Shown: positions 19,134 through 63,198 of the stretch, one piece after another
Numbering within the stretch: the stretch's first letter is position 1
Layout: each line of letters starts with the position of its first letter
Origin: Peribacillus simplex
GTDB taxonomy: Bacteria > Bacillota > Bacilli > Bacillales > DSM-1321
Assembly (NCBI RefSeq): GCF_900156045.1
Contig: NZ_FTMX01000005.1
Span: 434,001 to 498,000, forward strand
Direction of reading: 5' to 3'
DNA length: 64,000 nt
Position numbers and translations under genes: made by a program
The notes under the pieces: generated by a model
What the model was told of the DNA's origin: nothing
Database searches by the model: none
What the model saw: the letters and a program-made list of their open reading frames with translations, nothing else

Positions 19134-19368
19134 TTTATTTAGGCTCTTTTAGTAAAGATTGTTGTTTTAAAAACGAAACGATTTAAGGTTGATTGGAACG
19201 CAAGTGCGGGACTCCTGCGGGAGAGCGGGACAGGTGAGACCCCACAGGCGTTCACGCCGAGGAGGCTCACCGCCCGCCCCGTGGAAAGCGAGCATCTTGG
19301 AGGGGAAATCAACCACACCGCATTATTTGGTAAATAGCAACAAAGTATGCGAAAACAGCCTTTATTTA
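19134..19368. mobile_element. MITE-like element, copy 1, with 8-bp target duplication
   Basis: The element spans 19142-19360 (219 bp) and is flanked on both sides by the same 8 bases, TTTATTTA (19134-19141 and 19361-19368). The ends are imperfect inverted repeats of about 23 bases that begin GGCTCTTTT and GGCTGTTTT. The interior is G+C-rich and can fold: GGTGAG...GGCG pairs with CGCC...CTCACC. It encodes no protein. Copies 2 (22361-22548) and 3 (34751-34969) have the same ends and different 8-base duplications, which shows independent insertions. The GGCT tips plus 8-base duplications are what ISL3-family transposases produce; that source is inference. Confidence 0.85.
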
Positions 19369-19380
19369 AAAAACGTTCCT

Positions 19381-19470
19381 GTTGTTTTCAGAAATCCGCT
19401 CCCTTTCCGCGACTGTCCGCCAAGCCTCCTCGCCGCAAGCTTCTCTGTGGTCTCGGCTAGCTAGTTTTTT
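19381..19470 (-). repeat. Second repeat family, remnant A
   Basis: Read on the minus strand this stretch (AACTAGCTAGCCGAGACC, then GAGGAGGCTTGGCGGACAG and GGGAGCGGATTTCTGA) aligns over about 85 bases with 63238-63330. It sits 13 bases beyond the target duplication of MITE copy 1. It has no coding capacity and no visible terminal repeats. Confidence 0.6.
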
Positions 19471-19637
19471 GTTAAAATATTGGTTTTTCATCTTACCTTT
19501 TATAATAATGGAATGGTTTATAAATTATCCAGGAGTTAAATAAAGTTGCCCTTCAATGTTATTTAAATTAATAACTATATCTCCATTTTGATGTATTATC
19601 TTAACAAAGATACGAAATAAATGAGTGATAAACAAAG

Positions 19638-19675
19638 AAAAAGCGAACTTACCTCATAAGGAAAGTCCGCTTTTT
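19638..19675 (-). terminator. Rho-independent terminator of the metallophosphoesterase gene
   Basis: 13-bp stem (19638-19650 with 19663-19675, one G-U pair) followed on the minus strand by T-rich sequence, 37 bases past the stop codon at 19712. Confidence 0.85.
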
Positions 19676-19711
19676 ACTAATACAAATTTTTTAAAAAGTT
19701 CACCTGTTCTT

Positions 19712-21973
19712 TCATACATTTGGTGAAACGATCAGTTGGTCATCCAATCTAATATCGTCAATCGACCAAAACCAATTATTTTTAGCATTATGCATTCTCC
19801 ATTGTATTTTCATCGAAGAAGCACCTTCAGGAACCTTAATCGATTTAACTTCATACTTATTCAAAACATATCCATTTTTATTATCGGAATCAGCTTTATT
19901 GTCATAAACGAGAACTTGTTGTTTTTCCCCATTATCAAAGACAGCAGTCACTTCAGCTGTTTGCGTTCCTTCTTGTTTATAATGGGATGCAAATCCTAAG
20001 TATAGATCTTTTGCACCATCAACTTTTACAGAAGGTGAAGTTAATGTACTATCAAAAAAGCCCTTTGATGATGGTGAACCGTTATCATCCCATTCATCAG
20101 GATCCGCTACAGCTATAACACCTTGCCCAAGCTCAAATTTGTTACGATCTTGGTCTTCTGCTTTTGTCCAAAAGTCCTTTGTTGTGAAACTCCAACCTTG
20201 CCACTCCTCTGTACCAGTTGGCATATTTGAGCCATTTGTAACCGACCAGCCGTTAGGAGCTGTATGGCTCCAACCGAGAATGGAACTTGGAATGTTTTCA
20301 TTCACTGCTGGCTTTAATGCAGACTCTAATAGGTCAAAACTTTCTCCAAGCATCATGTTTACGAATACATTTATATTCTTGGAGCCAATTTTTTGGCCGC
20401 CTTCGTAAGCTGTAATCGTGAATTGTGATGAATCGGAACTTTCCTTACTAGGTGTAGCTTTTATTGCCAACGTTTTTTCTTCAGTTCCTGAAAGCTCATA
20501 CTCAAGTTCGGTGTGCTCCACACTCCAATCTTCAGGAGCAGCAACTTTAATTTTCCCTTTCACACTGCCATTTCCATAATTTTTCATCTTCACTTGAAGT
20601 GTAGTCGATTCACCTGAGGTTACTAAAGGAGGGGAAGCTTGTGCTGAGACCACTTCCAGGGCTTTTGTCTGACCTTCAGCCAGTAACCCCTTTTTACTGC
20701 TATTGTTAAATGAATCTAGTGCTTGTACCTTAATTTCATAATCCGTACCTGGCTTAAGACCAGCTACAGGGAACTCTAAATTCTTTGGAACAGGATCAAT
20801 ATAGAATTCAGAAAATGCGATGAAGTCTGCGTCTAACTCCCCAGTTTCCTTATTTTTGGCTGTAATGTGATATGAATGTACGAGCATGTTATCTTTTGCT
20901 TGTGGAAATGTAACATTTAAACTTTTTAGTGTCGATTTTTCTTTTACAATCGAAGCCTTGTCTTTAACTGCAAAAACCGGTGGTAACTGATCTCGATCGT
21001 CTGTATATTTAAAGTTATTTTTTTTAGAAGGATTTTTGATTACCCATGGTTTTCCTGCCCAATCGTCTTTATGAAAGTCACGTTTTTTAATGACAACTTC
21101 ATTATTATAAACTTCTACAATCATACCTTGACTAATATCCCGATATCCTTCTGGATGAAACCCTTGAAGTTTGCCCGGCTCTAATTCCAAATAACTTACA
21201 GAAGACGTGCCAACTGACGTAAAGTCTTTTTGATGAATCGTTCTAGGGTCTTCAAGTGGATAATGAGAATGGCCTGAAAATGTAATAACCTGTGGATGTT
21301 TCTTTAAGGTATCATATAAAAGTTCTTTATTTTCCTGAGTTCCCCATAAGTCACTTCCATACACAGTGTCTTTAATGTGTTGATGAAGAAAAACAAAGAT
21401 TGGTTGGTCCGGATTCTCTTTTTCTGCTGCAGCTAACTTTTCGCCAAGCCAGTTAATTTGATTAACAGAATACAAACCATGCGTATTCCCATTTTCCGGA
21501 CTTAACGTAATAAAATCATATCCATTTACTTTTTTATGATAGTAAAGAGAATCCATTCCTGTTTTCTCGAGAAAACGATCTTGTGCTTTTTCTACTGAAA
21601 GTCCATTCCAATAATCATGGTTTCCCATTGTAAACATGGATTGGACATCGCCTTGTTTCTTTTCATTATAAATGGAGAAGAACTTATCATACTCAGTAGC
21701 GTATCCATAGTCCGTTAAATCCCCAACGACAACAAAAGCATCCTGTTTAGGCGCAGCTTTGTTTAATTGATCCATGGCTGTTCTAAACTTGTTCATATCA
21801 GCAGATGATCCATCATCTATATGTACATCACTGATTACAGGAAAAACGAGCTCCGGTTTACGTTTATTATCAGAATTTGAAGATTCCGAGAATACTTGTA
21901 CACTTGATAAAGAAGTTGTTAATCCTACCGTTACAACTGTCAACATTGCAGCAAATTTATTTTTCGCTTTCAA
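19712..21973 (-). CDS. Secreted calcineurin-like metallophosphoesterase, multi-domain
   Basis: 753-residue exported phosphoesterase with a Sec signal peptide (about 1-30). The catalytic domain (about 40-270) carries all metal motifs: SDVHID, GDLTDYG, GNHDYW, LHQH and SGHSHYPL. A fibronectin-like region follows (about 340-430), then an immunoglobulin-like domain (about 435-535) and a C-terminal lectin/MAM-like domain (about 545-750, with WSIDDIRLDD). It probably cleaves phosphate esters or phosphodiesters outside the cell. TTG 21973 is preferred over TTG 21979 because the AGGAGG site then lies 8 bases away. The gene is monocistronic with its own terminator; the substrate is not determinable. 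Confidence 0.9.
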   Translation of the reverse strand: MKAKNKFAAMLTVVTVGLTTSLSSVQVFSESSNSDNKRKPELVFPVISDVHIDDGSSADMNKFRTAMDQLNKAAPKQDAFVVVGDLTDYGYATEYDKFFSIYNEKKQGDVQSMFTMGNHDYWNGLSVEKAQDRFLEKTGMDSLYYHKKVNGYDFITLSPENGNTHGLYSVNQINWLGEKLAAAEKENPDQPIFVFLHQHIKDTVYGSDLWGTQENKELLYDTLKKHPQVITFSGHSHYPLEDPRTIHQKDFTSVGTSSVSYLELEPGKLQGFHPEGYRDISQGMIVEVYNNEVVIKKRDFHKDDWAGKPWVIKNPSKKNNFKYTDDRDQLPPVFAVKDKASIVKEKSTLKSLNVTFPQAKDNMLVHSYHITAKNKETGELDADFIAFSEFYIDPVPKNLEFPVAGLKPGTDYEIKVQALDSFNNSSKKGLLAEGQTKALEVVSAQASPPLVTSGESTTLQVKMKNYGNGSVKGKIKVAAPEDWSVEHTELEYELSGTEEKTLAIKATPSKESSDSSQFTITAYEGGQKIGSKNINVFVNMMLGESFDLLESALKPAVNENIPSSILGWSHTAPNGWSVTNGSNMPTGTEEWQGWSFTTKDFWTKAEDQDRNKFELGQGVIAVADPDEWDDNGSPSSKGFFDSTLTSPSVKVDGAKDLYLGFASHYKQEGTQTAEVTAVFDNGEKQQVLVYDNKADSDNKNGYVLNKYEVKSIKVPEGASSMKIQWRMHNAKNNWFWSIDDIRLDDQLIVSPNV

Positions 21974-21979
21974 AATCAA

Positions 21980-22352
21980 TTCCTCCTATTTATCGTTTAG
22001 CCGCTTTAATTATGTAAGTATTTTGAAAAAAGACAAATATCCTCCTTATTTTTAAATTTTTATGTGTTTTACCAATTAAAATAGTAACTTTACATTATTA
22101 ATAAAATATAGGTTCAGTGTAATTTAAATATTAATAAATCAATAAAGGCCTATGGCCAATATTCGTTCCATACACTTTTGGCTCGTTTTTGGTATTGATT
22201 TGCCTTTGCTTGATGGGAATGGGGAACTATCCCTTAACTACGTAGTCATCCGAATTATGGTTATATTTATACATTTGGTAAATGATTCCATATTATATAG
22301 AAATACCAATTTTCATATGGTAAATTACAGAAGAATGAAAGGAGAGAGGTTA
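21980..22352. other. Gene-free stretch upstream of the metallophosphoesterase gene
   Basis: About 370 A+T-rich bases between the metallophosphoesterase start and MITE copy 2. A 68-codon open frame at 22152-22358 has no ribosome site and no recognisable composition, and it runs up to the MITE; it is not called as a gene. Confidence 0.4.
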
Positions 22353-22556
22353 TTATAAAAGGCTCTTTTCGTAAAGATTGTTGTTTTTAAAACGAAACGA
22401 TTTAAGGTTGATTGGAGCGGAAGCGCGAGACTCCACAGGAGTTCACGCCGAGAGGCTCACCGCCCGCCCCGCGGAAAGCGAGCATTGGAAGGGAAATCAA
22501 CCACACCGCATTACTTGGTGAATAGCAACAAAGTATGCGAAAACAGCCTTATAAAA
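22353..22556. mobile_element. MITE-like element, copy 2, with 8-bp target duplication
   Basis: Element 22361-22548 (188 bp), flanked by TTATAAAA at 22353-22360 and 22549-22556. The ends are the same as in copy 1. It is shorter because about 30 bases of the G+C-rich interior (the segment after CGCGAGACTCC) are missing. The right duplication ends 9 bases upstream of the -35 element of the dapA riboswitch promoter. Confidence 0.87.
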
Positions 22557-22565
22557 AAATTGTCC

Positions 22566-22594
22566 TTGCAATAAGAAGGATTCCTTGTTATATT
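22566..22594 (+). promoter_or_regulatory. SigA-type promoter of dapA
   Basis: TTGCAA (22566-22571), a 17-base spacer and TATATT (22589-22594) form a good vegetative promoter. Transcription would begin near 22601, about 30 bases before the lysine riboswitch aptamer. Confidence 0.6.
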
Positions 22595-22630
22595 ACAGTC
22601 AATTAAATATTTTCTTACTTCATACTTTTT

Positions 22631-22811
22631 GAAGTGAGGATAGAGGAGCAAAGACCATTAGTACACATTTTGAGGAGAATGAGATCCTATGACTTTTGTG
22701 GAAAGGGGAATTTGCCGAAGCGGAAAGAATCTCATGTTCTTGAAGCTGGTTCTGCTATTGAATAAATGCAGGACTGTCATATAGGAAACTATATGGAGGG
22801 CTATCTTATGC
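22631..22811 (+). promoter_or_regulatory. Lysine riboswitch (L box) aptamer
   Basis: The conserved L-box blocks are present in order: GTGAGGATAGAGGAGC, AAAGGGG, TTTGCCGAAGC, GCTGGTTCTGC, TGAATAAATGCAGGACTGTC and GGAGGGCTATCTTATG. The closing P1 helix pairs 22634-22643 with 22801-22810. Lysine binding stabilises P1 and favours the downstream terminator at 22847, which lowers dapA expression. The aptamer is complete and lies on the same strand as dapA, directly upstream. Confidence 0.93.
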
Positions 22812-22846
22812 GCGGAAACATTTTTTTGATAAATATTGTTTCTACT

Positions 22847-22876
22847 GCAGCAGCGAATCCTCGTTGTTGCTTTTTT
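22847..22876 (+). terminator. Riboswitch-controlled intrinsic terminator
   Basis: 10-bp stem GCAGCAGCGA / TCGTTGTTGC (22847-22856 and 22861-22870, two G-U pairs) with loop ATCC and six T. It lies 36 bases after the L-box P1 helix and 70 bases before the dapA start, so it is the expression platform. Confidence 0.92.
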
Positions 22877-22945
22877 GCGTTTACTCCTGAATCGCCCTAA
22901 CCACCTCTGAATTTTTATAAAAATTATACAAAAGGGTGTGAAGTT

Positions 22946-23833
22946 ATGAATTTTGGCCAAGTTTTAACCGCAATGGTTACCCCGTTTAATCATAATGATG
23001 AGGTTGATTTCAATGCTACGAGAACTTTAGTAAATTATTTAATTGCTAATGGTTCTGATGGATTAGTAATAGCTGGTACAACTGGAGAGTCTCCTACATT
23101 AACTGCAGAAGAGAAAGTGGATTTATTCAAAATTGTTGTAGAAGTTGTTGATGGAAGAGTTCCAGTCATAGCTGGAACTGGCTCAAATAACACGAAGGCT
23201 TCCATCAGCTTAACAAAACAGGCAGAGGCGGCAGGAGTCGACGGAATCATGCTCGTTACCCCATACTATAACAAGCCGTCTCAAGAAGGATTATTTCAGC
23301 ACTTTAGTGCCATTGCCCATTCAACATCTTTACCGGTAATGCTTTATAATATCCCAGGACGAAGTGTTGTGAACATGTCAGTAGAGACGATTGTTAGCCT
23401 CTCAAAAATCAACAATATCGTGGCAGTAAAAGAAGCAAGTGGTGACTTAGATGCCATGGCACAAATCATAAGCAAAACAGCTAGCGATTTTACATTGTAC
23501 AGCGGCGATGATGGGCTAACATTACCGGTTTTAGCCATCGGTGGAACAGGTGTTGTTTCGGTTGCTTCACACATAATTGGTAATGAAATGCAAGAAATGA
23601 TCAATAGCTTTAAAAATGGTGATGTCCATGGTGCTGCCACTGCACATCGTAGACTTCTTCCAATTATGAAAGCATTATTTACTGCACCAAGCCCAGCACC
23701 GGTAAAATCAGCATTAAATATGCGGGGGGTAAATGTTGGAGGTGTCCGCTTACCAATGGTCCCTTTAAACAATGAAGAAAAAAGTGCACTACAAATAGCT
23801 CTACAATCTAGTAAAGTATATAACTTAATTTAA
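22946..23833 (+). CDS. dapA: 4-hydroxy-tetrahydrodipicolinate synthase
   Basis: 295-residue DapA, which condenses pyruvate with aspartate semialdehyde in the first committed step to diaminopimelate and lysine. Expected residues are present: Thr45-Thr46 (AGTTGES), Tyr134 (YNIPGR), Arg139 and the Schiff-base Lys162 (VAVKEASGD). The length is normal. The start is ATG 22946 behind AAGGGTG. It is transcribed alone from a riboswitch leader and ends in a terminator at 23938. The lysine riboswitch supports a true DapA role rather than a keto-deoxy-sugar aldolase or dehydratase of the same fold. Confidence 0.95.
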   Translation: MNFGQVLTAMVTPFNHNDEVDFNATRTLVNYLIANGSDGLVIAGTTGESPTLTAEEKVDLFKIVVEVVDGRVPVIAGTGSNNTKASISLTKQAEAAGVDGIMLVTPYYNKPSQEGLFQHFSAIAHSTSLPVMLYNIPGRSVVNMSVETIVSLSKINNIVAVKEASGDLDAMAQIISKTASDFTLYSGDDGLTLPVLAIGGTGVVSVASHIIGNEMQEMINSFKNGDVHGAATAHRRLLPIMKALFTAPSPAPVKSALNMRGVNVGGVRLPMVPLNNEEKSALQIALQSSKVYNLI

Positions 23834-23937
23834 GTAAAATTAGAGAAAGATATTTTCATGAATGAATTATAATCGATTTATAGTTCAACTTAGAAATGGA
23901 TTTATATCTACTTATATAATTTGATGATGAATAAATG

Positions 23938-23970
23938 GCCTTTGTTCTCTTTGAGCAAAGGCTATTTTTT
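23938..23970 (+). terminator. Terminator after dapA
   Basis: 7-bp stem GCCTTTG / CAAAGGC (23938-23944 and 23956-23962) followed by TA and seven T. The remaining 370-base gap to the convergent Lrp gene holds nothing else recognisable. Confidence 0.82.
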
Positions 23971-24205
23971 TGATAAGTTTTTTTATCCACCCCCCTTTTA
24001 TTTCATGGCCTGAAAGTTGCTGTCCTTCATTTTGATCCTTGCTGTAGACTTGTATGTTTCCAAACTTACGGACTTCATTTTTTTATTCCATCTTCTATTT
24101 TTCTCTCTCTTGTTCTATCAAAAACCGTTCGTAAAAGTGAATACAAAATCATTATCGTCCGAAAAGTATTTTAAAACTGTACTTACAGTTAAAAATAGGT
24201 AACTT

Positions 24206-24697
24206 TTACGAACGGGACTTTTCTTCCCATATAGGCAACACTGTTGAATATTTAATTTCTCTGAGAGCTAGGCTAGTTTGAATTCTTGTTATGCCTAGTT
24301 TATTTAACTTTCTAATAAATGTTTCCAATTCCTTCCGATCTTTGTTAGCCACTTTTAAAAGATAATCATACTCACCTGTTAAACAATGGCACTCTAATAC
24401 TTCTGACATAGATGCTAATGCCTTCTCCAAAACTTCCAGTTTTTCAGCTTGATGTATATCCGTACTCATAAAAATAAAACATAATAAATCAAAACCTAGC
24501 TTCTCCTGGTTTAAAATTGCTACTTGTCCATTAATAAATCCTTCATTTTCCAAACGTTTTATCCTTGAATGTATAGCTGGCGGAGATAACTTGACGCGCT
24601 TTGCAAGCTCAGTATTGCTTAACTGTGCATCCTTTTGTAGTAAATCTAAAATTTGAATATCAACATTATCCAGAACCTTGCTTACGATAGATTCCAC
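24206..24697 (-). CDS. Lrp/AsnC-family transcriptional regulator
   Basis: 163-residue regulator. The N-terminal helix-turn-helix (about residues 8-65, LDLLQKDAQLSNTELAKRVKLS) is followed by an RAM/ACT-like effector domain (about 70-150), with GEYDYLLKVANKD and the C-terminal TSLALREIKYSTVLPI signature. The start is GTG 24697 behind AAGGAG (9-base spacing). It is divergent from the EamA transporter gene 250 bases away, a layout typical of an amino-acid exporter and its Lrp-type regulator. The effector is unknown. Confidence 0.92.
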   Translation of the reverse strand: MESIVSKVLDNVDIQILDLLQKDAQLSNTELAKRVKLSPPAIHSRIKRLENEGFINGQVAILNQEKLGFDLLCFIFMSTDIHQAEKLEVLEKALASMSEVLECHCLTGEYDYLLKVANKDRKELETFIRKLNKLGITRIQTSLALREIKYSTVLPIWEEKSRS

Positions 24698-24884
24698 TTA
24701 TAATCACTCCTTTTACAATTGTTCCAAAAACGGTATCATCCCAATAACGAAACTTAATTTAATTCTGTATATTAGCAATATTTTTTAATATTATTTTAAG
24801 TTTCCTCTATTATACAAAATAATATATAAAGTAATGAACTAAAATGTTAAAATTAGTAGTAATTAATTATGAAAATTGAAATGT

Positions 24885-24898
24885 CATTGTGCACAATG
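24885..24898. promoter_or_regulatory. Perfect 14-bp palindrome, candidate operator
   Basis: CATTGTGCACAATG is a perfect inverted repeat in the shared intergenic region of the Lrp-type regulator and the EamA transporter, 53 bases before the transporter start. It is a candidate site for the divergently encoded regulator; no second copy was seen here. Confidence 0.4.
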
Positions 24899-24950
24899 GC
24901 TTCGATCTTTTTTCACTTAAACTGTGAAAGATGAAAAGGAGCAAAAAGAT

Positions 24951-25865
24951 ATGCAATATTATTATTTTTCGTTATTACTTTTAACAAGTTTATTATGGGG
25001 TGGAAACTTTGTCTTAGGAAAATCGCTTGTCGGTCATGCTTCTCCGATGACGTTGACGAGTTTAAGGTGGATTATTGCCATTAGTTGTCTTTTGCCAATT
25101 GTATGGTGGAAAGAAAGAAAGATATTTCCCCCTCGAAGTGCAATCCTTCCTTTATTTTTGATGGGAATTACTGGTGTGGCTCTATTTAATCTATTACAAT
25201 TTGCAGCATTAGAGAAAACATCCGCCACTAATGTTGGATTAATATCCACATTAAACATGATATCAATTGCTGTTTTTTCATTTTTCTTTTTAAAAGAAAG
25301 AATTAATATTCTACAAATGTTTTCTATGTTTTTTTCGCTTATTGGCGTAATACTTGTACTTTCAAAAGGAAATATTGATCTATTCCTTTCATTACGTTTT
25401 AATACAGGAGATTTATATATGATGGCTGCTGTATGCGTTTGGGGAATATATTCCGTTTGTAGCAAATGGGCAATGATAACAACAACACCCATGATGTCTA
25501 CATTATATTCTGGTATATTTGGACTTATAGTTCTTCTTCCGTTTAATTTTTCTAATTTTACAGTGTCTAATATAAATGCTTCTTTCATACAATCTATTTT
25601 ATATACAGGCGTTATCTCAACTGTAGCATGTATGGTACTTTGGAACATTGGTGTACAAAAATTAGGTGCAACAACATCAGGTATTTTCTTGAATTTTAAT
25701 CCTATTTTCACTGCAGTTTTAGCCTATCTATTATTAGGTGAAAAAATGACTTGGGTACAAGGAATTGGTAGTGGTATTGTGATTATAGGCTGTTATTTGT
25801 TCTCACATTTTAAAGCGAAGGTGATTTTCAAAAAGAATTCTAGACAAACGCAGATTCAAGCATGA
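24951..25865 (+). CDS. EamA/DMT-family transporter
   Basis: 304-residue membrane protein with ten predicted membrane segments in two EamA repeats (about residues 5-135 and 150-290). Recognisable pieces are LLWGGNFVLGKSLVG near the start and the FLKERI and LLGEKM ends of each half. Members export amino acids or other metabolites by a drug/metabolite exchange mechanism. ATG 24951 is preferred because AAAAGGAG lies 9 bases upstream; the GTG at 24924 has no site. Divergence from an Lrp/AsnC regulator suggests an amino-acid-related substrate (inference). Confidence 0.9.
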   Translation: MQYYYFSLLLLTSLLWGGNFVLGKSLVGHASPMTLTSLRWIIAISCLLPIVWWKERKIFPPRSAILPLFLMGITGVALFNLLQFAALEKTSATNVGLISTLNMISIAVFSFFFLKERINILQMFSMFFSLIGVILVLSKGNIDLFLSLRFNTGDLYMMAAVCVWGIYSVCSKWAMITTTPMMSTLYSGIFGLIVLLPFNFSNFTVSNINASFIQSILYTGVISTVACMVLWNIGVQKLGATTSGIFLNFNPIFTAVLAYLLLGEKMTWVQGIGSGIVIIGCYLFSHFKAKVIFKKNSRQTQIQA

Positions 25866-25922
25866 TTTTTATTCAAAGTCTATAAACGTAATATCTCTCG
25901 TGATTAATTTTCTAAATATACT

Positions 25923-25952
25923 TAAAAGCCTGATCCAAGGTGGATACAGGCT
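25923..25952 (-). terminator. Probable terminator of the AlkD-type gene
   Basis: On the minus strand GAGCCTGTATCC pairs with GGATCAGGCT (one bulged base) and is followed by TTTT. It lies 48 bases past the stop of the 26000-26707 gene. The T run is short, so strength is uncertain. Confidence 0.55.
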
Positions 25953-25999
25953 CGTCTGTTCAAAAACTTCCGGATAAGGAATTAATAAAAAAGTGCTAT

Positions 26000-26707
26000 T
26001 TAACATCTTACATATTTGCGTTTAAAACCAAGCCTTCCTTTATCGACTTCTTTTTGAATACTTTCGTAAGCATTTAGAAAACTGCTTTTTTTCTTGTCCC
26101 GTTTGACTTCTACTATTCCTATTGCCTTTGCAGTCTCGACTGCCTTTTCATGGAGTGGCAAATATGAAATCCCCACGGTGTATAGAAAATTATTCATAGC
26201 GGATTTCGTTCGTTCCGGCGAATCGTGAATCGTATTTTTCACATTATCAAGCATATTGGAAATCTTACTTTCTGAAAATTCAACGTCTAGCCGATTCCCT
26301 AAAAGCCAGCAGTAGCAGCTCCAGCCCGCTGACATTCTCAGATCTTCACCGCTTGCGATCCATTTATCAGAAACTTCTTGTGCAATATCTGACTCTGCTA
26401 AAGTTACGGCCACTACATAATCGGACAGCATATAAAAATACGCAGCATCCATCCAACGATCATAATCCGACTCAGTCATGGCTTTTGGGTCTGCAATAAT
26501 GCCCGCAAAGTACATTGCATCGTAGTTCCCCGTGGAATAAAGCTCTTCAGCTAAACGGTTACTTATTTTTATTTTCTTTGCAATTGGTTTCATAGCGCCT
26601 GTAGCCACTCCAAAAAGCGGCTCATGCGCACCATTGGATATGTACATTTTTTTAGTTCGTTCCTTGCCAAGGGCTTCAAGTTCCTGCATGACCATCTCTA
26701 AATTCAT
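26000..26707 (-). CDS. DNA alkylation repair protein, AlkD family
   Basis: 235-residue all-helical protein of the AlkD/HEAT-like glycosylase family, which excises bulky alkylated bases from DNA. Typical pieces are the N-terminal QELEALGKERTKKMYISNGA, GVATGAMKPIAKKI, AGWSCYCWLLG and a C-terminal basic tail (GRLGFKRKYV). The conserved Trp and Asp that line the AlkD active groove have candidates (Trp86 in DRWMDAA and the Asp residues nearby), but which is functional cannot be told by eye. The start is ATG 26707 with an AAGGAAG site. The gene is monocistronic. Confidence 0.82.
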   Translation of the reverse strand: MNLEMVMQELEALGKERTKKMYISNGAHEPLFGVATGAMKPIAKKIKISNRLAEELYSTGNYDAMYFAGIIADPKAMTESDYDRWMDAAYFYMLSDYVVAVTLAESDIAQEVSDKWIASGEDLRMSAGWSCYCWLLGNRLDVEFSESKISNMLDNVKNTIHDSPERTKSAMNNFLYTVGISYLPLHEKAVETAKAIGIVEVKRDKKKSSFLNAYESIQKEVDKGRLGFKRKYVRC

Positions 26708-26983
26708 CGCTTAGCACTTCCTTCTTTTCGGAGTTTTCCCACTAATAATTTGCCCATCAAATATATCACCATTATCCTATAACAAACTACCATTTGTCAG
26801 CAAAAACTACCGTCTTAACTCATGAGTATTACGCAGGAATCGACTTAATATTGCCGACTTTTTTTAATTGAATTAACTTAAATTCGTACTTTCACCTACG
26901 CTAAAAACACAACTGAGGAACATATTAGAAAAACTTTCATGTAAAATAAACAACCTTCCTTTCGCTTGCTTAAGTTTATAGAC

Positions 26984-27024
26984 AAAAAGCATTCGGAACG
27001 AATTAATTCCGAATGCCTTTTTTT
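26984..27024 (-). terminator. Terminator of the serine dehydratase operon
   Basis: 10-bp perfect stem GCATTCGGAA / TTCCGAATGC (26989-26998 and 27007-27016) with A and T runs on both sides, 75 bases past the operon's last stop. The remaining 275 bases up to 26707 show nothing. Confidence 0.88.
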
Positions 27025-27098
27025 GAATTTAATCGAATACCATGCTTTTTTGCATCAGCGGAAATACGATGCGAGCTTAAAGGGTAATTATTAGGTAA

Positions 27099-28661
27099 TT
27101 ACTTAGTTTGAACCAAGATAATTTCGTCAATAATCGGAATCTCTCTTTTTAATAAGGATAGGAGAGTGTCTTCGATTGTATTGTCGATTTCACAAATGGT
27201 TATTGCAGCACCATTGATTTTGGAACGTTCATTGGCCATTCGGGCTATATTGAACCCGTTTTGATAAAGAATATCCGATAATTCGGCAATAACCCCTTTT
27301 TGGTCGGAATGGCGAATCACAAGTGTTGGCCGTTCTCCTGAAAATTTAAATGGATATTCATCAAATTCCTGAACCTCCACTTTACCACCGCCTAAAGAGC
27401 TGGCCAAAACCTTTACAGTACGTGTGACCCCTGACAATTCCACGAGGACGGTATTCGGATGATAGCTTCCAAGCACCCTTTTCGTGAATTCATATTGTAG
27501 GCCATTTTCTTCAGCAATATTTTTGGCATTTGGAATGCCATCATCCATGGTAGATAACCCCAGAACACCGGCTAATAGAGCCAGATCTGTTCCATGGCCT
27601 TGATAGGTTTCGGCGAAAGAGCCCATCAGCGAGAACGTTACATACAATGGATTTTCGTTTAATAGCTGGCGGGCAATATTCCCGATTCGGACAGCTCCGG
27701 CTGTATGAGAACTCGAAGGACCAACCATTACGGGACCGATGATTTCATACGCACTTTGGTATTTAGCCGGCCCACTGCCACTCGTTTTTCCGCTTAGAAT
27801 CTGCTTCTTTAATTTTTGCCCGGTCGGAGTTCCGGCGAGACCGCCTATCCCGGTTTCTCTCAACGATTCGGGCATTTGCTGTCCGACTTCATGCATCACA
27901 TGAATCACTTCATCAGGCGGGATGACGCTAGATATCCCAGCTAAAGCCATATCTGCAGCAGCTTGGGCGGTAATTGCATGTAAACCGTTGCGGATGATGC
28001 ACGGGATTTCCACCAGTCCAGCAACCGGGTCACATACCAACCCCAGTGAATTTTTCAAAGCAATTCCGACGGCATTTCCAACCTGCTTTGGTGTTCCACC
28101 GGCAAGCTCTACTAGGGTGCCTGCTGCCATTGCGGTTGCAGAACCGATTTCAGCTTGGCACCCCCCGGCAGCCCCTGATATCGAAGCTTTATTTGCAACA
28201 ACCAAGCCAAGTGCAGAGGCAGTGAATATTGACTGTACAATCTGCTTTCGGGTAAATTTCCCGCTGTCAAGGGCGTGAACAAGGACAGCTGGCAAGATTC
28301 CCGCTGACCCAGCTGTTGGCGTCGCCACAATCCGCCCCATTGCAGCATTTACTTCCGATACCGCGAGCGCATTTGCTGCAGCATTCAATGTTCTCGGATT
28401 GACAAAGGAATTCCCGTTTTGGGCATACTGATAAAGACGGTTTCCATCCCCTCCCGTCAAACCAGTACGCGACATGACTGGACTCTTTGTACCTCTGCGG
28501 ACTGCCTCCTCCATTACAGTAAATTGTTCCGACATTTTTTCGATAATCGTCTCCCTGGAACAACCTTTCTGATGCACCTCTGTTATGATCATCAATTCCG
28601 AAATGGTTGTTTTCTCCTGCTCTGCTAGTTCAATTAACTCTTTCAAATTGGTAAAAGACAT
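27099..28661 (-). CDS. L-serine dehydratase, alpha-beta fusion
   Basis: 520-residue iron-sulfur L-serine ammonia-lyase that makes pyruvate and ammonia. Residues about 1-295 match the SdaAA alpha chain (MSRTGLTGGDG, ATPTAGSAGI, SISGAAGGCQAE, GLVCDPVAGLVEIPC; these Cys would bind the [4Fe-4S] cluster). Residues about 305-520 match the SdaAB beta chain (GPVMVGPSSSHTAGA, GSFAETYQGHGTD), ending in an ACT domain. B. subtilis has two separate chains and E. coli SdaA is fused beta-then-alpha; here the order is alpha-then-beta. ATG 28661 with AAGGAG 7 bases away is the start. It is the last gene after an MFS permease and an M20 amidohydrolase. Confidence 0.92.
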   Translation of the reverse strand: MSFTNLKELIELAEQEKTTISELMIITEVHQKGCSRETIIEKMSEQFTVMEEAVRRGTKSPVMSRTGLTGGDGNRLYQYAQNGNSFVNPRTLNAAANALAVSEVNAAMGRIVATPTAGSAGILPAVLVHALDSGKFTRKQIVQSIFTASALGLVVANKASISGAAGGCQAEIGSATAMAAGTLVELAGGTPKQVGNAVGIALKNSLGLVCDPVAGLVEIPCIIRNGLHAITAQAAADMALAGISSVIPPDEVIHVMHEVGQQMPESLRETGIGGLAGTPTGQKLKKQILSGKTSGSGPAKYQSAYEIIGPVMVGPSSSHTAGAVRIGNIARQLLNENPLYVTFSLMGSFAETYQGHGTDLALLAGVLGLSTMDDGIPNAKNIAEENGLQYEFTKRVLGSYHPNTVLVELSGVTRTVKVLASSLGGGKVEVQEFDEYPFKFSGERPTLVIRHSDQKGVIAELSDILYQNGFNIARMANERSKINGAAITICEIDNTIEDTLLSLLKREIPIIDEIILVQTK

Positions 28662-28729
28662 GTTATCACTCCTTAAAGAAGAAGGTTCCCACGCCGTAAG
28701 CATAAGAACCGTCCCTTTTTTCCCTTTGT

Positions 28730-29914
28730 TTACTTCTGCTCAAAATATTCTGCAACTACAGCTGCCATTGCTTTTGCTGCGATGATCAAGCTATCCTCAT
28801 TAATAACAAACTTAGGATGATGGTGAGGATAAACTGGACCATCCTCCGGCTTTGCTCCAACATAAAACATACTGCCAGGAATCTTTTGCAAATAGTAAGC
28901 AAAATCTTCTGACCCAGACATTGGAGGTGTTTCCACTAACGCTTTGACTTCAGGAATTTCGGCCTTTTCAATCCCATTTACAACCAGTTCTGTCATGGCA
29001 TTATCATTCACTAAAACTGGGTAATCATGTGAGTATATTAAATCATAGGTAATGTCAAACTCTTGAGCAAGCCCTGCTAAAATTCGCTTGAATTCAATTT
29101 CCACTTTAGCACGAACTTCACTGGACATGGTTCTGACATCTCCCTCAAGTTCCACGCTGTCCTTTATAACATTAAATGATCCCTTTCCATCAAACGAGCC
29201 AATCGTTACTGTCGCCATATCAAAAGGATTGATTCGGCGACTTACGATCGTCTGTGCTGCTACAACAAAATGGCTTGCTGCGACAATACTGTCATTGCTT
29301 GTATGCGGCATCGAACCATGTCCGCCTTTTCCTTGGATTTTCACTTTGAAATACGAGCGTCCAGCCTGCATTTCACCAGCACGATAAGAGACTTCCCCGG
29401 TCACCGATAGGGACATGAGGTGAATGCCGAAAATACTATCCACACCTTCTAAACATCCATCTTCAATCATTGCAATTGCTCCACCTGGAGGCGTTTCTTC
29501 CGCAGGCTGATGCAAGATAACAACATTTCCCCTTAATTGGTCTTTTATTTCGATCAATGCTTCGGCTAAGATCATTAAATAGGCAGTATGTCCATCATGG
29601 CCGCATGCATGCATAACACCTGGATTACTCGATTTAAATGGGACATCTGCCTCTTCCATAATTGGCAGTCCATCAAAATCAGCACGCAGGGCAACCGTTT
29701 TACCTGCGAGTCCGCCTTCGATTGTCACAACCACTCCGTATCCGCCAACATTTGTCCGTATCATTACATTTTTATCTTTATAAAAATCAGCAATGTATTG
29801 AGCCGTTTTTTCTTCTTTAAAAGATAATTCAGGATGTTGATGGAGATATCTGCGAATTTCTATCATTTTTTCTTTTTTCTCTTCAAGTTTTTGCATGAGT
29901 TGATCTAACATCAT
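28730..29914 (-). CDS. M20-family amidohydrolase
   Basis: 394-residue metallopeptidase of the M20D type (hippurate, IAA-amino acid and N-acyl amino acid hydrolases). Metal ligands are visible in MHACGHDGHTA (about residues 97-107), HQPAEE and the C-terminal PHHHPKF. A dimerisation lid domain occupies about 180-290. It would release a free amino acid from an N-acyl conjugate in the cytoplasm. It starts at ATG 29914 or the next ATG, 29911, behind GGAGGG. It lies between an MFS importer and serine dehydratase, suggesting that the released amino acid is serine (inference). A 68-base gap leads to the dehydratase. Confidence 0.9.
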   Translation of the reverse strand: MMLDQLMQKLEEKKEKMIEIRRYLHQHPELSFKEEKTAQYIADFYKDKNVMIRTNVGGYGVVVTIEGGLAGKTVALRADFDGLPIMEEADVPFKSSNPGVMHACGHDGHTAYLMILAEALIEIKDQLRGNVVILHQPAEETPPGGAIAMIEDGCLEGVDSIFGIHLMSLSVTGEVSYRAGEMQAGRSYFKVKIQGKGGHGSMPHTSNDSIVAASHFVVAAQTIVSRRINPFDMATVTIGSFDGKGSFNVIKDSVELEGDVRTMSSEVRAKVEIEFKRILAGLAQEFDITYDLIYSHDYPVLVNDNAMTELVVNGIEKAEIPEVKALVETPPMSGSEDFAYYLQKIPGSMFYVGAKPEDGPVYPHHHPKFVINEDSLIIAAKAMAAVVAEYFEQK

Positions 29915-29925
29915 ATTCCCTCCGA

Positions 29926-31161
29926 TTATTTTTCTGCTTTAACGGTAAGTATGACTAGACCGCAAATTACAACGGCTATTGCCAAGGTGATGAATACGAT
30001 AGAAAACGATCCACCGGCCATAGAAATTAAAGCACCGAATGCCATTGGAGCAATAAAGCCCCCAAGCGTTCCACCCGTATTGACGATCCCAATGGATGAC
30101 CCAATTACTTTCTCAGGTAAAATCTTGTGCGGCCAAGAAAAAATTCCCACAAAGATCGTAGTTAATAAAAATGTAAGCACATATAAGAAAGCAATGGAAA
30201 GGGCCAATGAATTTGAAAATACTAAACCAAGAAACAACAGGGATGAAACTACTGAACAGCACATTAGCAGTAACTTTTCCTTACCAGCAAAATATTTTGT
30301 CAATAATACACCAGCAAATATGGAGGCCAGTGTTCCCCCAATAGCGTTCACCGCCAGGATTATCCCAACCGTACTAATGGAAAGTGTAAATTTTGTCTTT
30401 AAGAAGGTTGGCAGCCATGACATATTTCCATAAAAAGCTACATTCGCAAGCAGCATAGCAACGAATAAAATAATTACATTTCGATTGGAAATCACTGATT
30501 TAAAACTAACTTGTTTCTTTTCCGTTTTCGTTTTGGCAGTTGGGAGGCTATTAGGTACCAAAAAGGCAACCAAAAGTAACGAGATCGCGAACATTGTCCC
30601 CAGTGCATAGTAGGCATAATGCCAATTCAAGTCAATCAGCCGTGCCCCAATCACAAATGCTAAAATTCCGCCAATTCCACTCGTTGACAAAATGAGCGAT
30701 TGAACAAAGGTTCGTCTTTTTTTCGGGAAATTTTCGGCGATTCCTTTTGAACAGCTTGGAGGATAGCCTGCATGGCCAATACCAGACAAAAAACGAATCA
30801 AAATAAACATCAATAAGCTTCCAGCAAGGCCAAATGCGAATGAAAATATTGTAATAAGCGAAAGCGAAAGCATTAGTACCTTTTTATATCCAATCTTATC
30901 TGCGAGCCATCCCCCAGGTATCTGCATTAAAGAATAACCCAGGAAAAATAAACTCATGATCAAACCGGTTTGACTTGTTGTTAGATGGAATTGTTCTGCA
31001 ATTGGGATAATTGCAGTCGAAATCATGTTTTTGTCCATGTAAATCATGGAATAACCAGCCATTAAAGCTGTAGTCAACAAAACTCCACGGGTATTTCTTT
31101 CCTTTGATACCGAAAGTGGTGCTTCGCTTTGCTTCTTAATCGTTCCTTGAGAAACAGACAT
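29926..31161 (-). CDS. MFS transporter, anion/acid-type
   Basis: 411-residue transporter with twelve predicted membrane segments. The inter-helix loop 2-3 motif GGWLADKIGYKKVL is clear, and a second set lies around PHKILPEKVIG. The overall look (YMDKNMISTAIIPIAEQF, FLSGIGHAGYPPSCSKGIAENFP) is that of the anion:cation symporter branch, which imports organic acids and conjugates. The start is ATG 31161 behind GGAGG. It is the first gene of a three-gene operon and has a full-consensus cre site 27 bases upstream. The likely substrate is an N-acylated amino acid, inferred only from the two downstream enzymes. Confidence 0.9.
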   Translation of the reverse strand: MSVSQGTIKKQSEAPLSVSKERNTRGVLLTTALMAGYSMIYMDKNMISTAIIPIAEQFHLTTSQTGLIMSLFFLGYSLMQIPGGWLADKIGYKKVLMLSLSLITIFSFAFGLAGSLLMFILIRFLSGIGHAGYPPSCSKGIAENFPKKRRTFVQSLILSTSGIGGILAFVIGARLIDLNWHYAYYALGTMFAISLLLVAFLVPNSLPTAKTKTEKKQVSFKSVISNRNVIILFVAMLLANVAFYGNMSWLPTFLKTKFTLSISTVGIILAVNAIGGTLASIFAGVLLTKYFAGKEKLLLMCCSVVSSLLFLGLVFSNSLALSIAFLYVLTFLLTTIFVGIFSWPHKILPEKVIGSSIGIVNTGGTLGGFIAPMAFGALISMAGGSFSIVFITLAIAVVICGLVILTVKAEK

Positions 31162-31187
31162 AAAAGGCTACCTCCGAAATAATATTT

Positions 31188-31202
31188 ATGTAATCGCTTT
31201 CT
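31188..31202. promoter_or_regulatory. Consensus cre site
   Basis: ATGTAATCGCTTTCT matches every fixed position of the CcpA consensus WTGNAANCGNWNNCW. It lies 27 bases upstream of the MFS start, where bound CcpA would block or overlap the operon promoter. Confidence 0.68.
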
Positions 31203-31303
31203 TGTCTTCATTATAAATATTTTAAGTATTGAAAACATTCCAATCATTGTCGAAAACATCCCCCTTCATTTGCCCTTTTTCATTACTTGGCTTAACCGGA
31301 CAA

Positions 31304-31337
31304 CAAAAAAAGACCATTAAGTTTTAACCTAATGGCC
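31304..31337 (-). terminator. Terminator of the AraC-type regulator gene
   Basis: 8-bp stem (31312-31319 with 31330-31337) that includes the stop codon region of the regulator gene and is followed on the minus strand by seven T. Confidence 0.82.
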
Positions 31338-33642
31338 TAATTTCAAAGAGATGAATGGCATTTAACGTCAAAGTGGATTGTAAAAAGAGCTCCGAGTCAA
31401 TGTTTTCCTCATAGATTTGCAAATCTGGATAAGCTCGCTGCTTGAGATACGTAATGACCTCTTGGTCATAGATATACTGCTGATTGAGATTGAGCCAATT
31501 AAAGTAAAAAGCACCGTTATTTCTATCGAGAATGTGTTTGCGAATTTGATAAGTGCCAGAAGGCAGTCCTGAAATCATGATTTTCTTTTCCTTGGTTAAG
31601 GAGCGCAAAAAGAAACCTTCGACAGAATAGGTGGGATTGACATAGGAATTGTTATAAATGGCCAATTGATACCCTTGTTTCCCCTTCGTCAGTACAAAGT
31701 CCTCACCTTCGGCTAAAATCTCAAGTCCTATTTTCGCGATTAATTGCATGTTAAAAAACGCCGGCCGTTTTATTTGATAATAATAAAGCAGGGCAATTCC
31801 ATTCATTGCAATATTTTCATTATTCATATTACTTTTTTCCCATGAATGGGTGTCAATCCAAAATCCCAAACCGGAAATCTCTTTTATAACATCAAGCATG
31901 TCTTTAAAAATGAGAGCTGATCGAAAAAAAGTTCCGCTTAAATTTACTGTATTACCGTATAGTGTATTCCAGTTTGTCAGGTAAATTGGTGTGCCAGCCA
32001 AGCCAGCTGACAAAAGCTTTGCTTTTAATTCGATACATGATTTCTTTATATAATCTTTTACTCCCCTAAAAGAACTGTTATCCATATCGGTAAAGTCAAC
32101 TTTTTCATTTGGATTGCAGCTAAAGCAAACCAGGTCAATTTGATCCATTTGCTTTAAAAATTCAGTAACGGGGACTGATAATCCTTTTTCTAAGGAAAAA
32201 GGCACTTGTACTCCGACTTTTGCGGTGGAAGCCCTCTTTTTCACAGTTTGAAAGTATTGTTGATAAAAAGTCCGGGCTGTTTGATCCCACTCCGAGAAAA
32301 CCAATTCAAATTGCCATTTCCCGACAAAGGTATCGCCAAAATAACTGACAGCGTGCTGTAAAAATTCATCTAACATCTTTATATAATCCGGGGGGCTTTC
32401 TACTTCCTTTTCAAACTCCACACTAATGAATGGAACTAAACCAAGCCTTTGAAACTCGTTAAATAAAGCATCAATCTTATAATACGGCCCACCTATTTGC
32501 AAAAGCGGGTCGATTGTCGTAAATGTTTTGGAAAATAGGTTCGTGAAATAAGCATATTCAAAATGGAGCTGCTCCTGAATAAGCTTTAATTCTGCTTGGA
32601 CCTCTTCATTCAAGGCATATTCCAGCTGTCCAATCACCAGTAATCGCTGGGCTTTTTCCCTCACAAGAACAGGCTCTTGCGGCAGGTTGATATGTACCGC
32701 CGAAACTCCCGATTCTTTCACCTTCACACTTTGGTCCTTTTGCGAAATATACTTGCTCAATTCAATTAAAAAATGCGGCGAATTCACCAAGGTATATTGT
32801 TCACTAATATTATTTACTTCCTGGAAAGGTTCTTTTTTGTGAAGACCTCGATATTCAGCAGGTGTTTGATTGTACATTTCCTTAAAAGCCTTGTTAAAAG
32901 CTTTCACATTTGGAAAACCATTATTTAGCGAGACTTTCATAATGTTATGATCGGTATATAACAGCTCATGAACAGCCGATTTCAAACGGATTTGTTTTAC
33001 ATATTGCGAAAAACTCACACCAACAGCCTGTTTGAAATAACGGGACAAATAGTATAGGGATAAATATTGCCGTTTGGCAATCTCCTCAAATGACATCTGT
33101 TTGCGATAATTTTTTTCAATAAAAGTAAGGATATCCCTAATTCTTTCATCCTTGATGTCATTAAATCGATTCTGCCCGAGATGTGTAGTTTTGAAATTCC
33201 GGATAAGGAGTGTAACTAACTTGTAAATCTGGCTGTTGATTTCGAGTTCACTTCCATCCTGCTCTTGGTAATGTGCGATCAAAATTTCAGCCAAGAGTTG
33301 ACGGATTTGGTCAAAAAGAAGATATAACCCGCTATCCCCTTTGGATGAATGGCAGTCGAAATCACACACATGAATATCCGGATAATGCTGCTCGATGGAG
33401 TGAAGAGGAATTTGCAGCAATAGAACTACATTGTCTTCATGCCCCTTTACGGTATGGACATCATTAGCATTAATAAGCAGAAGATCATTTTCCGCCAAGT
33501 GATAGGAATCTTGATTGACCATAACCTCAATTTCTCCCCGGATAACGAAAAGAATTTCAATTCCTAAATGGATATGCTTTGAGTGATGGCGAATATTTTG
33601 CAAACTGATTTGGTAAGAATCTTCCATTACTGGTTCAGACAT
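31324..33642 (-). CDS. AraC-family regulator with GH39-like C-terminal domain
   Basis: 772-residue regulator. It has an N-terminal cupin (about 1-130), a double helix-turn-helix AraC domain (about 170-275; SLYYLSRYFKQAVGVSFSQYV and the FPNVKAFNKAFKEMYNQTPAEYR region), and then about 490 residues resembling a glycoside hydrolase family 39 TIM barrel plus beta domain. In GH39 enzymes a Glu sits where LTNWNTLYGN here has Asn, and the acid/base motif is also altered (FELVFSEWD). The barrel is therefore probably a non-catalytic sugar or glycoside sensor. ATG 33642 suits the AAAGG site best. It lies upstream of, and in line with, the MFS operon and is a likely regulator of it (inference). Confidence 0.82.
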   Translation of the reverse strand: MSEPVMEDSYQISLQNIRHHSKHIHLGIEILFVIRGEIEVMVNQDSYHLAENDLLLINANDVHTVKGHEDNVVLLLQIPLHSIEQHYPDIHVCDFDCHSSKGDSGLYLLFDQIRQLLAEILIAHYQEQDGSELEINSQIYKLVTLLIRNFKTTHLGQNRFNDIKDERIRDILTFIEKNYRKQMSFEEIAKRQYLSLYYLSRYFKQAVGVSFSQYVKQIRLKSAVHELLYTDHNIMKVSLNNGFPNVKAFNKAFKEMYNQTPAEYRGLHKKEPFQEVNNISEQYTLVNSPHFLIELSKYISQKDQSVKVKESGVSAVHINLPQEPVLVREKAQRLLVIGQLEYALNEEVQAELKLIQEQLHFEYAYFTNLFSKTFTTIDPLLQIGGPYYKIDALFNEFQRLGLVPFISVEFEKEVESPPDYIKMLDEFLQHAVSYFGDTFVGKWQFELVFSEWDQTARTFYQQYFQTVKKRASTAKVGVQVPFSLEKGLSVPVTEFLKQMDQIDLVCFSCNPNEKVDFTDMDNSSFRGVKDYIKKSCIELKAKLLSAGLAGTPIYLTNWNTLYGNTVNLSGTFFRSALIFKDMLDVIKEISGLGFWIDTHSWEKSNMNNENIAMNGIALLYYYQIKRPAFFNMQLIAKIGLEILAEGEDFVLTKGKQGYQLAIYNNSYVNPTYSVEGFFLRSLTKEKKIMISGLPSGTYQIRKHILDRNNGAFYFNWLNLNQQYIYDQEVITYLKQRAYPDLQIYEENIDSELFLQSTLTLNAIHLFEIRPLG

Positions 33643-33773
33643 GAACATTCACCTTTTTTTACTGGGATTTTACCACTGCCCATCAAGCTTTAGCAAATCA
33701 TGATCAAACGCAATTTTTCATGAAATATGATGGTAAGCAAGGTTTTTCATTCTATTGGTAAGAAAAGCCACAA

Positions 33774-33818
33774 CTACCCGCTTATTGAAGTGAAGCAGTC
33801 AGTACAATAAGCGGGTAG
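33774..33818. terminator. Long hairpin downstream of the HPP gene
   Basis: 14-bp perfect inverted repeat CTACCCGCTTATTG / CAATAAGCGGGTAG with a 17-base loop, 42 bases past the HPP stop. There is no good T run on either side, so it may terminate weakly or protect a 3' end. Confidence 0.5.
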
Positions 33819-33859
33819 CTATAAAACAGTCACATATAAAAGTATATGAAATAGGTTTT

Positions 33860-34435
33860 TCATAACCAGTGTTTTGGATATTGTCTTGTTTGAAATAAAT
33901 TATTATAAATCATCGATACAAAAACTAATAATAAGGTACCTATTACAATCGGAATCAGGAATCCCCAACCAGCTTGAGAATTGATCGAAACAAGGGCACT
34001 TGCTGCTGCGGGAGGGTGAACGGTTTTTGTAAAAGTCATGATAATTAATACAATAGCCAGTACCAGCCCGATAATGAATAGGCTTTTACCAAAAATGCTC
34101 CAAATGATAAGGGCTGATGTTGTAGAGATTATATGTCCTCCAATAACATTACGGGGTTGTGACAAGAGACTTTTATGCGCACCAAAAACAATAACACAGC
34201 TCGCCCCAAGAGGCGCTAATGCCATAGGATACCCTAAATAGACAGCTATAAAACTAATAATGATAATGGCAATGAGTCCACCCATAGCTGAAACAAAGGA
34301 ATCCATATAATCAATTCTGTCTTTTTCTCGAGCTTCGCCCTTCATTTTCTTTAAATATGCTGTTAAACCAGCGTTTTGTTGATTACTCCAACTTTTTTCA
34401 AGACTTTTCTCAAGACTTTTTTCTAATTCCATCAT
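33860..34435 (-). CDS. HPP-family integral membrane protein
   Basis: 191-residue protein. A hydrophilic N terminus with repeated LEKS (about 1-40) precedes four to five membrane segments and the family motif TVHPPAAASALV near residue 140. Some HPP proteins in cyanobacteria and plastids transport nitrite, but most bacterial members are uncharacterised, so no substrate is claimed. The start is ATG 34435 with GAGGAA upstream. The gene is monocistronic. GGAAAACA / TGTTTTCC inverted half-sites lie 70-120 bases upstream and might be an operator. Confidence 0.87.
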   Translation of the reverse strand: MMELEKSLEKSLEKSWSNQQNAGLTAYLKKMKGEAREKDRIDYMDSFVSAMGGLIAIIIISFIAVYLGYPMALAPLGASCVIVFGAHKSLLSQPRNVIGGHIISTTSALIIWSIFGKSLFIIGLVLAIVLIIMTFTKTVHPPAAASALVSINSQAGWGFLIPIVIGTLLLVFVSMIYNNLFQTRQYPKHWL

Positions 34436-34742
34436 TTATGTATTCCTCACGTTTTCTAAGTAAGCCGACAAGTCGACAGGGTTTTTATATATTGTTATCT
34501 TACAGGAAAACAATGAATTTTTAAATATATATCTGAATTTTCATTATTGTGTTTTCCAGAAAACTGTTAACAATCTCCCCTAGTCTGTGAAGTTATCATT
34601 ATAGTTTGTTATTTTATAGCGGGTTGGCCGTTATTAAAGAGTATAGATTAGCATCAAATGAAACATCATTCTGGTACATATAATTTTCTCAAGATCCCTT
34701 CCTTTTTGAAGCCTAAATTTGTCTACAACTTATTTGCTTTAT

Positions 34743-34977
34743 TTTCAATAGGTTCTTTTCGTAAAGATTGTTGTTTTTAAAACGAAACGATTTAAGGTTG
34801 ATTGGAGCGCAAGTGCGAGACTCCTGCGGGAGCAGCGGGACAGGTGAGACCCCACAGGCGTTTACGCCGAGGAGGCTCACCGCCCGCCCCGCGGAAAGCG
34901 AGCATCTGGAGGGGAAATCAAACACACCGCTTTACTTGGTAAATAGCAACAATGTATGCGAAAACAGCCTTTCAATA
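34743..34977. mobile_element. MITE-like element, copy 3, with 8-bp target duplication
   Basis: Element 34751-34969 (219 bp, the same length as copy 1), flanked by TTTCAATA at 34743-34750 and 34970-34977. The left end reads GGTTCTTTTCG (one change from GGCT). The interior is nearly identical to copy 1. The 300 bases between this copy and the HPP gene contain nothing else recognisable. Confidence 0.87.
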
Positions 34978-35068
34978 AAAACAATTGCTCCAATACGAGT
35001 TAGGTCTAGTTCTTTAAAACCATAAGAAATCACCTTACGGGCAGCTTCTGTTTATCTTGTTTAATTTA

Positions 35069-63066: not shown

Positions 63067-63198
63067 ACTGAATACTATAGGGAAACTCACTTTTCTTCAT
63101 ACAAAATGGGGTTCGGAATGGACTGCCCTGAACAATGATAATAAAAAGAAGAATTGGTTATCCTTCATGAATTTATACCTTTTAATATGGAATGAAAC

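Follow-up and report, generated by a model that had tools for sequence, protein, structure and literature searches.

A high-copy, recently mobile MITE family in Peribacillus simplex and its probable IS1595-family partner

Background

Within a 64-kb stretch of Peribacillus simplex DNA (the window; bases 434001-498000 of contig 29, in a draft genome that comprises 31 contigs and 6.08 Mb), three short elements each lie between two copies of an 8-bp repeat. Are these elements transposed members of one MITE family, and which transposase would move them? An earlier note, made from the letters of the window, had proposed exact borders and real transposition in answer to the first question, and an ISL3-family transposase acting in trans in answer to the second.

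ISL3 and IS1595 elements both make 8-bp A+T-rich duplications, so that the duplication length alone is not decisive. For the IS1595 family, 23 experimental insertions of an ISEc69 transposon possess 8-bp duplications with an A+T content of 100% at positions 1, 2, 7 and 8 and of 83-91% at positions 3-6 (excerpt of PMC7835479). ISApl4 is flanked by 8-bp repeats, mostly A/T-rich (excerpt of PMC12561309), and replicative excision with a circular intermediate is suggested for IS1595-type elements in a review (excerpt of PMC5704250).

Results

Three copies in the window

The borders of copies A, B and C lie exactly where the earlier note had placed them (Table 1). Identical 8-mers abut these borders, TTTATTTA at A, TTATAAAA at B and TTTCAATA at C, and the flanking repeats match at 8 only, among lengths from 6 to 14 tried. 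The number of three copies also holds, as no further full copy was found in the window, and the inverted ends are imperfect, as had been noted, and agree at 18 of 23 consensus positions. Copies A and C share 94% blastn identity, B shares 81% with either of them. A transposase gene is absent from the copies: the listed ORFs of at least 80 aa that touch A and C extend beyond the element, and B is free of them. Copy C as a whole has a folding z of -4.6; the first 149 bases have -2.65 in A and -2.89 in C, the first 140 bases of B +0.44. No Rfam family is assigned to the MITE at the gathering threshold. Next to copy B, a lysine riboswitch (RF00168, 114.8 bits, window 22633-22811) begins 77 bases past the right duplication.

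Table 1. Coordinates of the MITE copies, their target duplications, ends and cores in the window.
Feature	Position	Strand	Remark
8-bp target duplication TTTATTTA, left of A	19134..19141	.	single copy in orthologous locus L071
MITE copy A, 219 bp	19142..19360	+	also present in same-species genome G041
8-bp target duplication TTTATTTA, right of A	19361..19368	.	
G+C-rich core of A, GTTGATTGG...GGAAATCAA	19188..19312	+	approximately element positions 47-171; borders from core-only copies
8-bp target duplication TTATAAAA, left of B	22353..22360	.	
MITE copy B, 188 bp	22361..22548	+	31 bp shorter, mainly within the core; site occupied in G041
8-bp target duplication TTATAAAA, right of B	22549..22556	.	
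8-bp target duplication TTTCAATA, left of C	34743..34750	.	single in 6/6 other-species loci with both flanks
MITE copy C, 219 bp	34751..34969	+	query for genome searches
8-bp target duplication TTTCAATA, right of C	34970..34977	.	
Left end of C, 28 bp	34751..34778	+	family consensus against IS1595-clade ends: 27/28 (L175), 26/28 (L209, L210, L402)
Right end of C, 28 bp	34942..34969	-	family consensus against IS1595-clade ends: 26/28 (L212, L403)
G+C-rich core of C	34797..34921	+	
Core-only relative of the MITE interior	62941..63068	-	without MITE ends; inside a longer repeat

Copy number and target duplications in the genome

The MITE right end, with up to three mismatches, is present at 107 sites genome-wide (64 forward, 43 reverse), and the reversed-pattern control has none. 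The duplication census drew on the sequence around 100 of these 107 sites and comprised 102 right ends at distinct genome places; 95 of them could be paired with a left end of at most 6 mismatches in 23, and 7 were dropped. A search of the genome with the MITE ends, as the earlier note had suggested, yields about a hundred copies, and in 66 of the 95 paired ones the 8-bp duplication is perfect, with 1.1 expected from random re-pairing of the flanks. A further 13 match at 7 of 8 positions, and 16 are without a duplication under the rigid rule, among them L238 and L266, which look like indel border shifts. The copies of 214-222 bp (n=71) have a mean identity of 95.8% pairwise and of 97.6% to the consensus. 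Among the 30 best scorers against copy C, a single one lies inside an ORF of at least 100 aa once the element is removed, and such ORFs make up 53% of the flanks.

The A+T-rich target choice seen in the three copies extends to the family: the duplications are 93% A+T and the flanks 65%. Position by position, the 66 perfect duplications contain 100, 100, 89.4, 86.4, 87.9, 84.8, 98.5 and 100% A+T, a profile near-equal to that of ISEc69 (PMC7835479, in part) in a family whose ISEc69, ISApl4 and IS1016 group share the 8-bp A+T-rich duplications (also PMC12561309, in part).

Ordinary extragenic repeats spread by recombination, with flanking repeats that arise by chance in A+T-rich DNA, would fit the 65% A+T of the flanks and the 16 of 95 copies that lack a duplication. 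They would fit neither the excess of perfect duplications over the 1.1 expected nor the empty sites described below, which are clean and contain the 8-mer once. The probability of this reading is next to nil, and for the family as a whole it is refuted here. The exact borders and the real transposition claimed for the three copies are borne out by the same duplications together with empty sites between and within species.

Empty sites and movement

The six loci of other species in which the flanks of site C are joined are L071-L076; a seventh locus, L078 (G005), gave the right flank alone. At site A, the 8-mer TTTATTTA is single in L071, and L073 and L074, small differences apart, run through without interruption; L072 carries other sequence, and the right flank is unmatched in L075 and L076. 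A clean empty site was not seen for site B, where the relatives are more divergent; the flanks lie several hundred bases apart in related genomes, with an apparent secreted-protein gene start between them (by eye).

The same-species genome G041 possesses copies A, B and C. Its copy B (L070, 3916-4114) lies where copy B of the window does, between identical TTATAAAA duplications, and has a deletion near the left end. Since the internal deletions of copy B differ between the two strains, both copies decayed after one insertion. Copy C of G041 (L070, approximately 16292-16545, orthologous to window 34751-34996) is inverted in place with about 27 bases of right flank; the inversion leaves GGCTCTTT behind, and its breakpoints share a short inverted match, TCGTA/TACGA (by eye).

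Fifteen further G041 copies, chosen from the listed high-identity matches and the tip search and hence biased towards young copies, comprise 9 that share both flanks with a copy in the window's genome and 6 that do not. The latter are 216-218/219 identical to the family consensus. When their joined flanks were searched in the window's genome, continuous sequence was found for four of the six, and one flank for the remaining two. Base by base, three of these sites are clean empty ones (L352, L354, L356) and one has a small deletion (L358). As G041 insertions thus stand at empty sites of the window's genome, the MITE family has moved since the two strains separated. Empty sites in sister strains, which the earlier note had named as a check, are therefore available three times in clean form within the species, besides the six of six loci between species at site C.

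ISL3 and IS1595 elements as partners

Mobilisation in trans by the transposase of another element, as the earlier note had it, remains likely in general, without support for its ISL3 part: the transposons with matching ends belong to the IS1595 family. An ISL3-family transposase moving the MITE in trans would account for 8-bp, mostly A+T-rich duplications, and ISL3 elements of the order also begin with GGYTCT. PF01610 (ISL3) is present in 11 of 36 genomes of the genus and in 112 of 299 of the order, but has no match in the window's genome (G000), in G041 or in those relatives that carry copies of the MITE (G001, G005, G012, G031 and G044). The tips differ as well. From 32 ISL3 loci examined, the 18 with a perfect 8-bp duplication were used, and most tips of the delimited elements are of the type GGYTCTA...TGTTGGGG, where the MITE ends read GGCTSTTTTCG...TTGTTG. 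No more than 12 of 23 bases are like the same-side MITE end in the 18 loci, and again no more than 12 crosswise in 11 of them, whereas tips of the IS1595 clade reach 22/23 and 26-27/28. With an inner tip sequence unlike that of the MITE and a family not found in the host species, ISL3 is a very improbable partner. One ISL3 locus, L082, has a MITE tip with two mismatches, but upstream of the ISL3 gene and pointing away, and was rejected.

In the window's own genome, the tip pattern with one mismatch leads to a decayed IS1595 transposon of 2,015 bp, which has a perfect ATTTTAAA duplication and retains fragments of a transposase. One of its ends matches the MITE in 21 of 23 bases, the other in 15. 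The transposase piece scores 76.7 bits against NF033547 (cut-off 75) and 22.5 bits against PF12762, which is under Pfam's cut-off of 27; within the genus, 22 of 36 genomes contain a PF12762 match. A full-length, uninterrupted transposase of the MITE-tip group occurs in one of the 36 genomes, G031, with two frames of 345 aa. One of these belongs to the 3,021-bp element L210 (632-3652), which has a perfect TTAAAAAT duplication; this transposon sits inside a copy of the same MITE. Against NF033547, L210 reaches 200.9 bits, L209 208.5 bits and L212 190.8 bits (cut-off 75), and the L210 transposase has no sequence match in the PDB at E 0.01. Neither the window's genome, which holds the broken copy only, nor G041 was found to possess an intact transposase of this clade.

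Plasmids of Niallia sp. Man26 (NZ_CP095745.1, NZ_CP095746.1) carry elements of 1,686 and 1,765 bp with annotated transposase genes, whose products (74% and 65% identity) are annotated as IS1595 family transposase. A plasmid element of Cytobacillus solani (1,560 bp) contains a broken transposase gene. The Niallia and Cytobacillus elements all have MITE-type tips at both ends, which depart from the pattern at 0-2 bases, and their 8-bp duplications are perfect. Across the loci, both tips and a perfect duplication are found in L210, L402 and L403, all with an uninterrupted gene, and in L404 with a broken one; the broken L178 has one good tip, one poor tip and a perfect duplication, and L209 and L211 have both MITE-type tips without a matching duplication. 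L403 matches the two MITE ends in 26 and 24 of 28 bases, L402 in 24 and 26. Passenger genes recognised by Pfam are an MFS transporter (L210), a GNAT acetyltransferase (L211) and DUF2975 (L178), with none recognised in L209, and a DinB-family protein is annotated in NZ_CP095746.1.

The tip follows the transposase clade. Where identity to the L210 transposase is at least 55%, a MITE-type tip within one mismatch lies nearby in 11 of 14 loci and the other tip, GGCTNTGTTAAA, in 0 of 14; where it is at most 43%, GGCTNTGTTAAA is present in 16 of 16 loci and the MITE tip in 0 of 16, these 14 and 16 loci being a selection from the listed matches, in which a nearby tip could be that of an adjacent element and not of the transposase in question. 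The second clade, with tips GGCTNTGTTAAA, could itself be imagined to move the MITE: it is of the same family, has the same duplication length and is uninterrupted in several genomes, and a core-bearing MITE, L038, uses its tips. In each of the 16 chosen loci, however, the best tip is at least 3 specified bases off the MITE pattern, which makes this clade an unlikely source of the enzyme.

Named genomes were also scanned with a pattern of those bases that the two MITE ends share, the usual interior being excluded. Bacillaceae account for most of the 38 stretches obtained, and 15 of the 38, with element lengths of 87-372 bp, have an accepted end pair together with a duplication in which 7 or 8 positions agree. 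Stretches from other phyla (e.g. Algoriphagus, Herbaspirillum) are without an accepted partner end and are taken as chance. The same tips also bound a second, A+T-rich type of MITE, which is 181-184 bp long and without the core (L113, L114, L122, L129, L138, L140, L143, L144); it contains a further copy of the tip start in its interior (by eye) and occurs in Neobacillus, Mesobacillus and Bacillus records. Two candidates were rejected: L126, a weak end pair of 1,742 bp with ORFs unlike transposases by eye, and L157, of 1,056 bp with a perfect duplication, but containing nested repeats. Many matches of the plain plasmid tip search are likely chance, and five were examined: L175 (Priestia flexa) is a broken IS1595 element, and L173, L174, L176 and L177 gave no paired element with a duplication. 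In viral contigs the tip pattern has 0 matches, and the MITE has no match to phage.

The G+C-rich core

The core of the MITE (positions 47-171, about 125 bp) occurs without MITE ends in many of 31 genomes, 25 of which have some match. Plasmids of Bacillaceae and Paenibacillus contain it as well (15 records); in none of these records does a single place cover 80% of the MITE. The borders GTTGATTGG...AATCAAC are constant in most core-only repeats examined, some of which are clustered. The core-only copy of the window is part of a repeat of about 400 bp (62941-63339) with many matches in the genus, and core clusters occur elsewhere (G031:C1:702683-704241; L335, L337), some in tandem. Just inside both borders lie near-identical 9-base direct repeats, GGARYGGAA (by eye; e.g. 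L035, L300).

Conversely, 18 of 41 paired elements with MITE tips have no core match, although L117 and L153 of these seem to hold a core stub. The stub of L153 contains one GGARYGGAA repeat, which fits a deletion between the repeats or an old insertion. A 184-bp MITE of G021, L038 (1464-1647), has the core as its interior and is bounded by tips of the other IS1595 clade; these tips show 0 mismatches, and the TATACAAT duplication is perfect. Among the loci examined, core matches lie in a MITE shell in 116, in the other shell in 1, in none in 68 and too near an end in 7, counts that reflect the loci chosen and not natural frequencies.

The constant borders of the core and its presence without MITE ends in many genomes might suggest that this core, rather than the ends, forms the unit of transposition in the MITE family. 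The duplications of the MITE, however, abut IS1595-type tips and not the core, and many of the paired same-tip elements without a core match possess 8-bp duplications, so that such a unit is hardly credible. With the core found without MITE ends and MITE tips without the core, ends and core seem to have separate histories, and the core may have been captured by the MITE shell once or several times. More tentatively, and with the odds rather against it, the core could itself be a modular genetic parasite that moves between shells (MITEs of at least two IS1595 clades, core-only repeats, tandem clusters) and exploits any available transposase across the order.

Discussion

The elements of the window are members of a real, high-copy and recently mobile family, most often 219 bp long. 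The family is a further case of a known kind, the MITE, to which the corrected likely partner and the unusual shared core are the additions. Judged by the copy number, the borders and duplications, the empty sites in other species and in a second strain, the similarity of the ends and the correlation of clade and tip, all of them read from sequence, it is very likely that the family consists of IS1595-type ends round a shared core, that a transposase of an IS1595 clade acts on it in trans, and that the recent jumps probably went through a lost or transient enzyme. Confidence in the IS1595 reading is slightly lowered, since no single partner matches both MITE ends better than in 26 and 24 of 28 bases.

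On this IS1595 reading, two transposon ends, of which about 28 bp per side are recognisable, would flank the G+C-rich core, and a clade of IS1595-family DDE transposases would recognise them in trans. The source would be transposons of Bacillaceae, often with passenger genes and on plasmids as well. Insertion would take place at A+T-rich, mostly intergenic sites with duplication of 8 bp, and we infer that the MITE probably moves replicatively. As the search for an intact transposase was negative in both strains, the enzyme behind the recent jumps has probably since been lost or arrived transiently, e.g. on a plasmid; the IS1595 elements on plasmids make a transient source plausible rather than proven.

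The IS1595 family resembles the MITE in its duplications, and the candidate partner transposases exceed the NCBIfam cut-off for IS1595. The window elements differ in being without a transposase, and their tips match one Bacillaceae clade, a comparison made outside ISfinder. The bcr repeats are repeats of the Bacillus cereus group; they and the MITE of the window are both repeats of a bacillus, set side by side here by name only. A closer parallel in kind is MITEAba12/ISAba12 of Acinetobacter, which is likewise short and non-coding with ends shared with an IS, and for which trans mobilisation was inferred from the ends and the duplication length; its duplications are 9 bp long, however, and its IS is another one (excerpt of PMC6382973). 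The same excerpt describes bacterial MITEs as A+T-rich, whereas the interior of the window MITE is G+C-rich and common to other repeats. Titles and abstract openings of the literature on MITEs with ISL3, with IS1595 or in bacilli, with subscription literature mostly outside, contain no publication on this family, and a search of the literature with core oligomers gave unrelated titles only. The prokaryotic MITE review PMC10969869 does not mention IS1595, Bacillus, Bacillaceae or ISL3.

For an abundant MITE family of Bacillales, IS1595 thus replaces ISL3 as the likely partner, and the Niallia sp. Man26 plasmids NZ_CP095745.1 and NZ_CP095746.1 offer transposons with an uninterrupted transposase gene on which this can be tested. 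Movement within the species, together with the lack of a detected intact transposase in either strain, opens the idea of a lost or plasmid-borne transient enzyme to a direct test. With the shared core comes a further question, that of how a short non-coding stretch enters unrelated repeat shells.
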